Shown piece by piece: positions 9,281 through 60,700 of a DNA stretch of 64,000 nucleotides. Source of the stretch: Lota lota (lineage: Eukaryota; Chordata; Actinopteri; Gadiformes; Lotidae); contig JACYXH010000781.1 in assembly GCA_026745465.1 (NCBI GenBank), positions 2,137,501-2,201,500 on the forward strand, in the 5' to 3' direction. Every line of letters begins with the position of its first letter. The stretch's first letter is position 1. Below the pieces are notes generated by a model. That model made no database searches. It was not told where the DNA came from and saw only the letters and a list, made by a program, of their open reading frames with translations. A program made the translations under genes and the position numbers.

Positions 9281-12200
9281 TCATTGCAGACGAGATTTCT
9301 TCACTGAGGAGGCCTCGGAGGGGACTTTGCGTTTGCGGGACGGGGTGGCTTGTTCGCCCTCGGAGGAAACCTCGGGCAGATAATACAGCTGTATGGGGGG
9401 TACAGGCTCCTGTAGAAACCAAGAATACACCAGGATTTTAGTGTTAGCCTCAGCTAATCTGCTAGCTGTGAAATCACTGAGCTGGGTTGGGTGTTACTGC
9501 CTGCTAGAAATAGCTGAGAGGGAGTTAACATAACAGGCACAAAATTAGCAGTAAAACTATAGGGCTATATTGTTGGGAACACACACACACAAAACATGGA
9601 CACGCATTCAAAACACACACACACAGATATTTAAAAGGCATGCACATAACACCCCCCTCCCACACACTGCAATAAACACGTGCACACTCTGAAATTAACA
9701 GCCTAACACACACACAATAATTTAACTATTTTTTTAATTGTGTGTTTACACACACACACACACACACACACACACACACACACACACACACACACACACA
9801 CACACACACACACACACACACACACACACACACACACACACACACACACACACACACACACACACACACACACACACCTGCATGAGGTAGTCAGCGATGT
9901 ACTCAGGCTTGACGCAGGTCACCCCCTGGGCCGAGGCCTGAGACACGTCCACCCTGAATTCCCCAGGCTTCAGACGGCTGAAGTCAGCAAACAGGTGGGT
10001 GGCCTCCCTGTAGGAGGAGGTGTCCACAATGGACAGCACCTGGAGGAATGGGAGGGATGTGAGGCTGTTACTATGGATCCTCGTTTTACTTCATTTCCGG
10101 CCTTTTTTTACCTGATTTAATCTGAAGAACGTTGTGAACTACTTAGTATTTACTGAAAGATACTATAGTTAATATCATTTTAGTTATGTTACTGCATACA
10201 GAAGAGACACATATTGTTGTAGGAAATATGAAGAACATTTTAAACCTAAGAAGCATTGCCATCTCTGGTAAAACACAATGGCTGTTCCTGATTAGTTGAA
10301 TTTGTGCCAGGAGACTGATGATGATGTGTGAGATGGTGATGACATGGCCACTCCCATAAAGATACATATCAAATCATGAAGGCACATATCCATCAACTGT
10401 ATTTGTGTGTTACTTAATAAATGACTAAAGAGAAATGGGAGGTGTACCTTAGCTCCTCCAGACTGCAGTAACCGCCTGAAGCCAGACTCTCTGGTCTGGT
10501 CGATGTTGAGCATCACGGTCCAACCACTGAACGCTCCCTTAGGAAAACATACTGGTTTATAGGACACTACCAGTACACATACTGGTTTATAGGACACTAC
10601 CAGTACACATACAGGTTTATAGGACACTACCAGTACACATACTGGTTTATAGGACACTACCAGTACACATACAGGTTTATAGGACACTACCAGTACACAT
10701 ACTGGTTTATAGGACACTACCAGTACACATACTGGTTTATAGGACACTACCAGTACACATACTGGTACAGAGTTAGGTACTACTAGATTATGATAAACAT
10801 ACAGGGGATAACCATAAGAGATGGCTTAGTGAGCATCCCTACATGGTTATATTGTAGAGCTTTTCTGAACCAACCCAATATATTAATCTGTTCTGCAAAA
10901 AAAAAAAAAAATCCCATGCCGCATCTATCTTCATATTGCTGCCAATATTATAAATATTTTATTCCAGAGCAAGTGTGTTTCTGTGTGTGTGTGTGTGTGT
11001 GTGTGTACCTCCAGGGTTGAGCGGTCCTGCAGGGAGGTCCTCCAGCGCTTGGCAGCCATCGCCAGCCTCTTCTTGTGGGGACTGATGGAGGGAAGAGCAT
11101 CCAGGATGGAACCACTGCCCCACTCATACTCATCCTCCTGGGGGGAGGGGAGAGGAGGGGAGGCGGGGAGGGAGGAAGGGAGAGAAAGAAAGTTGGAGGG
11201 GAGGAAAGCGGGAGGTGGGGAGGGAGAGAGGGAGAGGGAAGGTTGGAAGGAGGGAGATGGATGGGGGAGAGAAGGTTGGAGAGGGGTGGAAGGGAGAGAG
11301 AGTTAATGGAGGGAGGTAGGAAGGAATTAACATGATTGGACAAGGACACCATTTCTCCACAGAAAGGTTGAGGTAAACTATTCATAGAACTCTTTCTTTA
11401 TAAGTTCTAGTAAAATGTAATCTAGTCTGCATGTATAATGAATGCCAGTTGGAGCCAGATAATTAATCCTCTTGCTCAAGGGCACTCCAGTGCCCGCCAG
11501 TGCCAGGGTTCCCACACCTTTAAAACACCCTTTCTCATGGCTTCCCCCCCCCCTTCAATTCATTCATATCAACTATTTTACTACAACCCCTGACCTCTCC
11601 AGAGTTGGACCCAGACCGGAACAAAGGCAATGTCTGCACTATGCAGGATCAATGTAAAAAACATAGTCAACAGTTTTCACCAAGGTTTTCTTAGCTCTGT
11701 CCGTCCACACTGAAAGGGCGAAAATGCATACTTTGTCATCTCACATGCGTAGACCAATTTAGCCGATCGCCCGATTCTGATTGGTCACCTGGACCAGGTG
11801 AGCTGGTGTGATTGGCGGGTGTGTGATTGTGTGATTGTGTACCTGTAAGAAGTGTCCGGCGGCGCGGCAGGCCTCAAGGTAGGAGCGGTGCAGGATCCAC
11901 TTGCCGGCGGCCATAGCAGCCAGATACTTCTCGTTACGCAGGGGGTTCCCCACGATGATGTGGGTGCAGCTGGGGTCGAACGACTGCTTGTCCAGCACCA
12001 CGCCTCCTGCAGGCACAAACACAAAATATCACTAATAATCATGTAGCGTACACTAGAAATCATTTTGGGATTGATATGATGATGAGGATCACAATAAAAG
12101 TAGCATGATGCAACATTTTGGGTATACAGTACCCAAAATATTTGGATATCAATAATGTCTCAATTACTCCTATTGCTTCTTTCCAAAATATGGTTTACTT

Positions 12201-57700: not shown

Positions 57701-60700
57701 TCCACATAGACCTCGCCGCCGGTGTCCTTTCGTCGTGACATCGAAGAGTATACTAAAAGCCACTTTGATGTCACAAATGCTACCTGCGTTTGGGGCAGAG
57801 TGGAACATTCACAAAGTGGACGGCTGAGACTGGCACAAAACATTGGATTTTACTCCCGTTTTCTCTAAATGATGGTCGTATTTAAGTCACATTGCTAAAA
57901 ATGGCATAGATTACTATGTTGACGATCATATAAGACATAAAACCACGTTTAAAACAAAATAAACTATTTGGGGTTCACTGCCCCTCTTTAAAAGGTATTT
58001 TTTTGTGACGCTTTTAAAGAGAGGTGTCCTGTGTTTTGACTCACTAGGGGGCGCTGCCAAGAACTTGAGGTGCAGACTCTCCACCTCCTCGTCTACGGGC
58101 ACGCTCAGTAGGCCCCATCGCTGTCCCCGCTGCGTGGACGCCATCTTCACACACACGTCCCGGTTCCCTGACGCCCGCACGCCATCCAGCAGACTGGCTA
58201 GCAGGGCGTCTCTGCACACACACACACGCACACGTGCACGCGCGCGCACACACACACACAGTGTGAACATACAAGTGGAAACCCACAATAACGATAATAA
58301 TTGTAAACAGACAAGTTTACACTTATTAAGTGTTAAAACACACAAGAGGTGTTAACACACACACACTTAAACATTTACACACATTTGCTGCAGCTCAAAT
58401 GTATTTTACCTTTCTGTGTTATTTTTTTTCTGAGTTTTGAAACATTCACTAGAGTGTTTTACCTCTCTGTGGAGTATTCAAATATTCACTAGAGTATTTT
58501 ACCTCTCTGTGGAGTATTCAAATATTCACTAGAGTATTTTACCTCTCTGTGGAGGAGAATTTTCTGATCTGGCCTCTGATGAACTCTACTGTAAAGATCT
58601 GGGGGTTCTCCACGTCGCAGATCAGAGCAAAGACCTGGAGATCAGACCACGAGAGACCGGACCGGAGGTTAACACACAGTATTACACAGTATCAGCATTT
58701 CATTTAAAAACAATATTTTTCAGGGCTTTTCTTTCCTTTATGGACAGGACAGTGAAGACAGACAGGGAAGTGGGTTGAAGAAGAGAGGCAATGATATGTA
58801 GCTTAGGAGCGCAGATGAGGTTTTAACCCTGGCCAGTGCAACATGCATTGCGTAGGTGGTGATTTGCACCAGCACGTTGAGCCACCCCAGCATGGCTTTC
58901 AACACATGTCACACTACACATTACAATGTGTGATGTTCTGTGATGACTGGTTAAACATCAGCCTTCCCACCTGTCCTTTAAGAGGAACAGTGTCTTTCCT
59001 CTTCTGTCAACACTTCCTGGTTACCGCGTGGTTACAGTCGCTATGCAAGGACGCCCCCATCCCCCTACCTCTCCGAAAGGCTTGATGGTGACGATGTTGT
59101 AGGAGGCGGGGTCTCGCTCCACCAGACATGTCTCCGTCAGAGCCAGGATGCGCTTCACGGGCTCCTGGGAGGGACAAACAGAACGATGTGGTCGGAAAGT
59201 CAAAGACTCACTACAGTTTCAACAAAATTAAAACTGAAGTCATAGAAGTTTGTTATACAAACATGTTGCAGGCATTGCAATAAAGCGCCTTCATCTGAAT
59301 CACACTTTTACAAAAGGTGTTTTGTAGATGTTCCATGCATTCTTGTCGTGACTGACAGAACAGTGGAGGCAGACAGGAAAGTGGGTTGAAAGAGGGAGAG
59401 CATTACATGTTTGTGCAAGACTGCAGGTGTGAATCGAACCTGGGTCACTGCAGTTTTGCAAACGTGGTTGTTGCACATGTGGGTTGAGCCATCGCAATTC
59501 TAGGTCACACCGGGCTAAAACCACTAACACACAGCTTGAGGTAGGGTTTTGGGTGGTGTTGTGTCTTGTTGTGTCGTGTTGGGTGGTGTTGTGTTGCGTC
59601 GTGTCCTGTCATGTCGGGTAGTGTCGGGTCATGCTGCGTGGTGGTGGTCTCGCCGTGCTGACCTGATGTCGGGGGGAGATCTTCTGCACCACGAACTCGG
59701 CCAGTGATGTTATGCTGTCGTCTGAGCTGTACTTCCCCAGGCGGTCCGCGGTGAACACCTCAAAGGTCAGAGGGTCCTTCCGCAGCCGCAGCGAGATGCC
59801 GATGTAGTTCCCAGCATGCTCTATGGCGCTGCGGATGATGTCGTCGCGGTGCTCCGAGGCAAACAGATGCTGAGCGGGAGGAGGACGTGGAGAGAGGACG
59901 TGTGAATCCCAGATCAGGATCGGTCTTCTCGTCACAGACCGAGTATAAAAGTATAGTGGGCAGCGACATCGACATAACTTAGGATACCGTATGTAAACAG
60001 AAAGAACAATAGACAAAATAATATAAACCTCTACGAAATATGCTATACATTTATTAGAAATAAGAAATATACATCACAAATAAATAGAAACTAGAAATAC
60101 AGATATAAACCAGGTTATATAAAGTGTGCAAACACGAGAAAAAAAAGCGGATGCCTGTACTGAAAAACAAAGTCAAACTAAGCTAATGAAACACTAATGC
60201 AGCCTAGGGCTGGCCGACTTGGCCTGAAAGTTGGAAGAAGAAAGAATGCAAATTAATCAATTAAATCGAAAGAAAACACCCAGCCCTACCTAGAAGCGTA
60301 CTTTAGGATTTCAGAGCTGGAACTTTCACAGCCACACACACAGACAGACAGACAGACAGACAGACAGACAGACAGACAGACAGAGAGAAAGACAGAAAGA
60401 CAGCTAGCCAGCCAACCAGCCAGCCAGCTAGTCACCCACCAACCCAACCAGTCAGTGTGACGTACCAGCCGGTTGAAGCCCCCATGCAGGATACAGAAGC
60501 CCCCCTGGTAGTCTGAGAGCTCGGCGAAGCCCTCGATGGAGCGGTAGTCGTAGGAACACAGCACGCGGTTGGTCTGGGGGTCTATCTGGTCGATGCCCCC
60601 CGGCGTCACCTCCAGACTGACGGGCCGCCGCGTGTCGCTCCAGTGGTGCTTGAAGCAGTTGTAGCGCTGCGGGTGGAGACAGGTGAAGCTACACTTAACA

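Follow-up and report, generated by a model that had tools for sequence, protein, structure and literature searches.

Minisatellites that copy splice donors, and none that copy acceptors, in introns of four Lota lota genes

The human IFI6 gene (6-16, G1P3) reportedly carries, by the title of a paper in Nucleic Acids Res 1995, 23:1854, a minisatellite with multiple splice donor sites. In amphioxus, the Adh3 and globin genes contain minisatellites spanning exon-intron boundaries, named "mirages", and the portion of that report available to us states that reverse transcription polymerase chain reaction (RT-PCR) suggests undisturbed splicing (PMC3087553). Tandem duplication of AG/GT proto-splice sites is described, in the available part of the source, as a route to intron gain (PMC2891723), and codfish genomes are, according to excerpts of two accounts, rich in tandem repeats (PMC5241972, PMC5894186). 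Here we report the position of tandem repeats relative to splice sites in a 64,000-nucleotide stretch of Lota lota DNA (assembly GCA_026745465.1, contig JACYXH010000781.1, positions 2,137,501 to 2,201,500; hereafter the window), which holds two minus-strand vertebrate genes, DNAJC13 and TOPBP1, and in two further genes of this genome, FIG4 and AFDN, which lie on a different contig.

Six arrays in these genes resemble the amphioxus mirages, as far as the excerpted report describes them, in that the unit lies across an exon-intron boundary, many copies carry AG/GT signals and the authentic exon is unaffected. Since the units span junctions and hold splice signals as in amphioxus, we class all six as vertebrate mirages. 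They differ from what that excerpt describes in affecting 6/126 donors and 0/126 acceptors, in a vertebrate, and in being known from the genomic sequence of one haplotype; we take the acceptor-side absence as a difference of the present set and not as a defining feature of mirages. The IFI6 minisatellite is likewise said to supply repeated donors, but there, by the title, these serve a transcript, whereas here the downstream donors would lead to stops or a frameshift and are probably unused. Tandem duplication that copies splice signals is shared with intron gain at proto-splice sites; there, in the part of the account at hand, the duplication makes the intron, while the present arrays lie within introns of conserved genes (PMC2891723). 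The high repeat load is also codfish-like, arrays called by Tandem Repeats Finder (TRF) at a score of at least 50 occupying 12.8% of the window and 13.0% of the block with FIG4 and AFDN, a likeness to be read as a lead only (PMC5241972); the excerpted codfish accounts do not say where repeats lie with respect to splice sites (PMC5241972, PMC5894186). Within these partly available sources, junction-spanning minisatellites are known already; our literature search found no report of a donor/acceptor contrast for tandem arrays, or of a donor-only distribution with a rate relative to the interior, although one may still be in print.

The genes were mapped by spliced alignment, with human proteins as guides. 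The mapped coding part of DNAJC13 (RME-8) extends over 30028..62741 of the minus strand (1837 of 2220 aligned residues identical to the guide; 53 trusted introns) and TOPBP1 over 9287..27609 of the same strand (779 of 1488 aligned residues identical; 26 introns once doubtful pairs were merged). Pfam matched RME-8_N, GYF_2 and DnaJ on 1576 of the 2220 DNAJC13 residues and TopBP1_BRCT0 and BRCT on 741 TOPBP1 residues, so that domain matches on parts of both models make the gene identities independent of the guides. DNAJC13 introns 1, 2 and 41 were excluded before any counts, the doubtful TOPBP1 pairs 4/5, 15/16, 23/24 and 28/29 were each merged to one and doubtful intron 20 was retained, resulting in a window set of 79 introns (53 from DNAJC13 and 26 from TOPBP1). 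Other stretches of the genome were also taken (C1:1-20000, C1:30001-200000, C2:1-10000 and C3:1-90000). FIG4 and AFDN lie on C1:30001-200000 (Pfam: SacI; RA, FHA, DIL), where 47 of 68 homology-aligned introns passed a fixed filter; C3:1-90000, C2:1-10000 and C1:1-20000 yielded no introns used in the counts. Ab initio exon calls on the FIG4-AFDN block were set aside and the homology mapping was relied on, since the finder chained noise across genes; in that ab initio set, 44 exons (of 45), arrays came within 30 bp of a donor 8 times and of an acceptor 3 times, where 0.9 would be expected. Arrays were defined as merged TRF calls with a score of at least 50 and assigned to introns if at least 60% inside, the window holding 64 of them, 54 in the 79 mapped introns. 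The pooled set comprised 126 introns and 127 arrays in four genes of one genome and one haplotype, and the tests were picked after the data were seen.

In six of the 126 introns the repeat unit includes the exon end together with the donor, copying from 9 to about 35 exon nucleotides and giving 2-19 tandem donors. The minisatellite at TOPBP1 donor 18636 (17852..18645) has a 41/42 bp unit made of 9 exon nucleotides, the donor and intron sequence, and shows 19 junction copies, 18 of them with GT. At DNAJC13 donor 38226 (38152..38241) the unit is 40 bp with 15 exon nucleotides by TRF, and two GTGAGT donors have equal scores. A second 40-bp unit, with 12-14 exon nucleotides, occurs at DNAJC13 donor 58542 (58393..58554) in four donor copies, the last of which lies beyond the TRF array at 58432-58554, while an 88-bp duplication over DNAJC13 donor 54614 (54501..54641, ends approximate) holds about 27 exon nucleotides in two copies and has no TRF call. 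These window arrays are all on the minus strand. The remaining two belong to AFDN, with units of 32-42 bp in 17 copies at block coordinate 135254 and of 62-63 bp in 4 copies at 164511; a GTGAGT/GTGGGT array at AFDN 122100 copies only 2 exon nucleotides and was left out of the six.

The GT dinucleotide was retained in 47 of the 48 copies (18/19 at 18636, 17/17 at AFDN 135254, and 4/4, 4/4, 2/2 and 2/2 in the others). Erosion of the decoy donors was looked for in the copies at 18636 and AFDN 135254 and none was seen; the donor columns were conserved like the rest of the unit (0.971 v 0.960 and 1.000 v 0.952, respectively), and one downstream copy at 18636 outscored the authentic donor (11.3 v 7.8). 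Use of the second donor would introduce an in-frame stop at five of the six junctions and shift the reading frame at the remaining one. The authentic coding exon is intact, as the protein alignments run without stops and the exon ends at the first donor. The predicted stops or frameshift and the conserved protein therefore indicate the first, exon-proximal donor as the one probably used.

The frequency of junction copying was evaluated with 24-mers, a junction being scored as copied when its 24-mer had a match of at least 20/24 in its own intron, with simple-sequence 24-mers set aside. Copies were found across the donor in 6/126 introns and across the acceptor in 0/126 (Fisher one-sided p=0.015), both the intron upstream and the 300 nt downstream having been searched for acceptor-spanning copies. 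With 15 different settings of span and threshold, the number of copied donors ranged from 3 to 10 and that of copied acceptors was always 0. Background copying reached 187/2380 in the intron interior (7.9%; up to 20 24-mers were sampled per intron, which are hence not independent) and 0/378 in the exon 30-75 nt upstream of the donor. The donor rate was not distinguishable from the interior (P=0.13), whereas the acceptor rate was below it (P=3e-5). Along the 95 introns of at least 320 bp, the copied fraction on the donor side rose from 0.01 for spans lying 24 nt into the exon, through 0.05 at the junction itself, to about 0.10-0.13 at +16 and beyond; on the acceptor side it was 0 at the junction, 0.01 at the edge and 0.04-0.07 deeper in the intron. 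In the window an unfiltered, weaker rank criterion returned 7/79 donors and 1/79 acceptors, the latter a GT run, and in FIG4 and AFDN it returned 4/47 donors and 0/47 acceptors.

Base coverage by arrays showed the same direction. In successive bins to 100 bp it was 0.08, 0.12, 0.16, 0.21 and 0.24 from the donor and 0.00, 0.04, 0.08, 0.13 and 0.13 from the acceptor, and a sign-flip test of donor minus acceptor over the 126 introns gave p~0.005 at 30, 60 and 100 nt. The intron ends were then compared with the interior in 103 introns of at least 300 bp. At 6-30 nt minisatellite coverage was 0.109 at the donor end, against 0.130 in the interior and 0.038 at the acceptor end; the acceptor deficit relative to the interior had p<0.001, and the test for a donor excess gave p=0.80. 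The corresponding values at 6-100 nt were 0.162, 0.130 and 0.078 (donor above interior, p=0.12). All arrays together covered 0.159 at 6-30 nt from the donor, not above the interior (p=0.36). Minisatellites avoid acceptors rather than clearly seeking donors, and much of the donor/acceptor contrast arises at the acceptor, where minisatellites are depleted and junction duplications absent.

A sequence-only reading of the window had claimed that tandem repeats repeatedly begin at the donor ends of introns, and this was confirmed in part. Within 30 bp of a donor begin 14 of the 54 window arrays, against 4.55 expected from uniform placement in the same intron (p=0.0002), and the excess was also seen with 40 bp closed at the acceptor (14 vs 5.8 expected, p=0.0006) and for arrays of period at least 7 (11/43 vs 3.8 expected, p=0.0005). 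At the laxer score of at least 40, 19/76 arrays begin within this distance (6.7 expected), in agreement with the 18-20 counted by eye in that reading. It had listed 15 donors, giving as coordinate the last exon base, and 12 of these have an array of score at least 50 starting within 30 bp; for donors 25400 and 60466 the nearest array lies at 37 and 62 bp and for 52293 there is none at that score, while donors 11008 and 58542, absent from the list, qualify too. In FIG4 and AFDN 10/73 arrays begin within 30 bp of a donor vs 2.26 expected (p=0.00005), and the donor-side excess is not private to the window, as it recurs in these two genes. For the pooled 127 arrays the count was 24 vs 7.8 expected (p=0.00005) under a collapsed-intron null, in which all arrays were collapsed out of each intron.

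Acceptors also exceeded chance, and the direct donor/acceptor contrast is therefore modest. The statement that few minisatellites abut acceptors held only weakly, since 9/54 window arrays lie within 30 bp of one where 4.5 were expected (collapsed-intron null: 5.3 expected, p=0.07); by eye, 7 of the 9 are pyrimidine-rich or GT-rich. In FIG4 and AFDN the acceptor-side count at 30 bp was 5 vs 2.3 expected (p=0.04), and the pooled count was 14/127 vs 7.8 expected (p=0.016). The donor/acceptor contrast was 17 v 7 at 15 bp (p=0.032, 127 arrays), with neither gene set significant by itself (p=0.06-0.25); within 30 bp it was 16 v 8 for minisatellites (p=0.076) and 8 v 6 for microsatellites. The argument that chance placement would not favour donors so strongly holds against uniform placement, but weakens in this direct comparison. 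The TOPBP1 acceptors at 10538 and 17614 read AAG and could be mapping errors or unusual acceptors, the former sitting 9 bp from a 30-bp minisatellite.

On balance, we consider it probable, by a little, that splicing tolerates duplications at the donor and not at the acceptor, and that this accounts for the minisatellites. Tandem duplication would hit the introns of a repeat-rich genome roughly evenly, exon-intron borders included, and splicing would decide the survivors. If a duplication spanned the donor, the proper end of the exon, with its donor, would stay put and the extra donors would fall inside the intron; with the exon-proximal donor in use the mRNA would be unchanged, so the duplication could persist and grow into a minisatellite that carries donors, a mirage. 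If a duplication spanned the acceptor, a second tract with its AG would precede the authentic AG, and splicing to the earlier of the two would lengthen the exon, so that such alleles would be lost, presumably by selection. The branch-point and tract zone would also exclude other minisatellites. Older donor-bearing arrays might decay into arrays merely abutting the donor, a suggestion into which the higher internal match of the donor-bearing arrays (94-98%, n=5, vs 64-96%, n=11, in other donor-proximal minisatellites; one-sided p=0.044) fits weakly.

Several points weigh against this account. The evidence comes from four genes of one genome, through tests selected post hoc. Where several strong donors compete, the intron-proximal one can be preferred, and the decoys would then be harmful. 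In the available part of the amphioxus report, mirages can duplicate both boundaries, the acceptor side included (PMC3087553). The donor versus acceptor count at 30 bp, 24 v 14, was not significant (p=0.072), and a rank test of junction self-similarity over the 79 window introns showed no donor/acceptor difference (p=0.31), so the donor-copy signal is confined to few introns. Once the 6 arrays that extend more than 1 nt across the donor are removed, 18 arrays on the donor side and 14 on the acceptor side still lie within 30 bp, each count above the 7.8 expected, and tolerance does not explain this surplus at the two ends of the introns. Finally, coverage by all arrays at 6-100 nt from the donor exceeded the interior (0.222 vs 0.148, p=0.009), as did that by microsatellites (0.085 vs 0.024, p=0.002), and the microsatellite excess lies outside the tolerance account.

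This last excess leaves room for donor-side seeding of short repeats, which may act alongside tolerance. As an explanation of the whole pattern, seeding, by which a GT-rich donor or AG|GT microhomology would raise repeat births at the intron start, seems to us unlikely. The 17/127 arrays starting within 15 bp of a donor (4.0 expected under the collapsed-intron null, p=0.00005) speak for it, several arrays of dinucleotides are continuous with the donor itself (GTGTGT, GTACAC, GTAACACAC), and the microsatellite coverage favours a birth bias for short repeats; a working view that donors are no hot spot for any array was accordingly dropped for microsatellites. However, minisatellite coverage and the copied-24-mer rate near donors are not significantly above the interior, donor-including duplications are no commoner than interior ones, and microsatellites are raised at the acceptor end too (0.056 vs 0.024 at 6-100 nt), short repeats being denser toward both intron ends and more so toward donors. 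The idea of the sequence-only reading that donor-like sequence seeds repeats is thus not needed for minisatellites, whose coverage at donors is not significantly above the interior, and is possible for microsatellites. Four AC arrays begin 2-5 nt past donors 11008, 32922, FIG4 24461 and AFDN 136274 (the latter two in block coordinates), the junctions reading GTAC, GTACGC, GTAACAC or GTAAGAC.

Arrays might also spread anywhere and be clipped by selection against exon entry, so that their edges pile up at the border without a donor-specific cause, the acceptor differing only because the branch point and tract need room. Coverage of about 0.2 at 30-60 bp from the donor, lower across the last 150 bp before the acceptor, is consistent with clipping, which otherwise fits the tolerance account; since clipping alone does not produce units holding exon end and donor in many copies, we regard it as quite unlikely to be the explanation. 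AC/GT pairing reportedly aids splicing in zebrafish introns (Lin et al. 2016), and the repeats might be functional in this sense, donor AC arrays pairing with acceptor GT arrays. AC runs do occur in the first 120 nt of 7/126 introns and GT runs in the last 120 nt of 9/126, but both together in only 1/126 (0.5 expected) and the reverse arrangement, GT first and AC last, in 0/126, and 16 of the 24 donor-proximal arrays have a period of at least 7, making this reading very unlikely. R-loops or transcription-linked damage at intron starts, also raised by the sequence-only reading, draw on array position and nothing further found; the sense-strand G-skew of the 24 donor-proximal arrays was mixed (mean -0.18 vs 103 others, p=0.32), and we give this idea hardly any credence.

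Further donor-proximal arrays called by TRF in the window, all on the minus strand, do not enter the six. A 19-bp minisatellite at 35267..35713 starts exactly at its donor and keeps GT in 8/14 junction-like copies, the exon side not being copied. In the sense orientation, (GT)65 at 9748..9877 starts at the donor, and (AC)n arrays lie 2 bp from donor 11008 (10973..11006) and 5 bp from donor 32922 (32769..32917). Minisatellites with 16-bp units are found 20 bp from donor 21130 (21041..21110) and 27 bp from donor 56560 (56468..56533), one with a 43-bp unit 14 bp from donor 41113 (40921..41099) and a diverged 18-bp one 3 bp from donor 46401 (46239..46398). Others lie 14 bp from donor 40449 (40028..40435), 26 bp from donor 45081 (44941..45055) and, with TRF periods of 56, 114 and 170 bp, 12 bp from donor 47753 (47278..47741).

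Elsewhere in TOPBP1, an intronic segment at 24200-24340 resembles, by eye, a tRNA-derived short interspersed nuclear element (SINE) ending in CTACCTGCTCCTTAATG. The 41-bp unit of the intron array at 16903-17213 contains the same words as this end, and the minisatellite may therefore be SINE-derived. A probable GC-AG intron occurs at 22534 (ctatag|GCAAGCATC). Among the other stretches taken, C1:1-20000 is a single satellite array with a 26-bp basic unit and about 90% matches that fills the whole 20 kb, C3:1-90000 shows retroelement-like open reading frames and repeated pseudo-exons with few ordinary genes, and C2:1-10000 shows retroelement-like open reading frames.

Tolerance at the donor could extend to a genome-wide rule, vertebrate introns being permeable to tandem duplication at the donor and sealed at the acceptor, with the spliceosome taking the exon-proximal of up to 19 tandem donors; we hold this only tentatively, at somewhat under even confidence. 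If true, the donor-copy loci would be natural tests of exon definition, and TOPBP1, with 19 junction copies, and AFDN, with 17, are loci for asking how the spliceosome picks one of many near-equal donors. If genome-wide, the pattern would carry junction-spanning minisatellites beyond amphioxus into a set of vertebrate genes where their rate has been measured, and tandem repeats would become a natural assay of splice-site tolerance, in which donors are multiplied harmlessly and acceptors are not.

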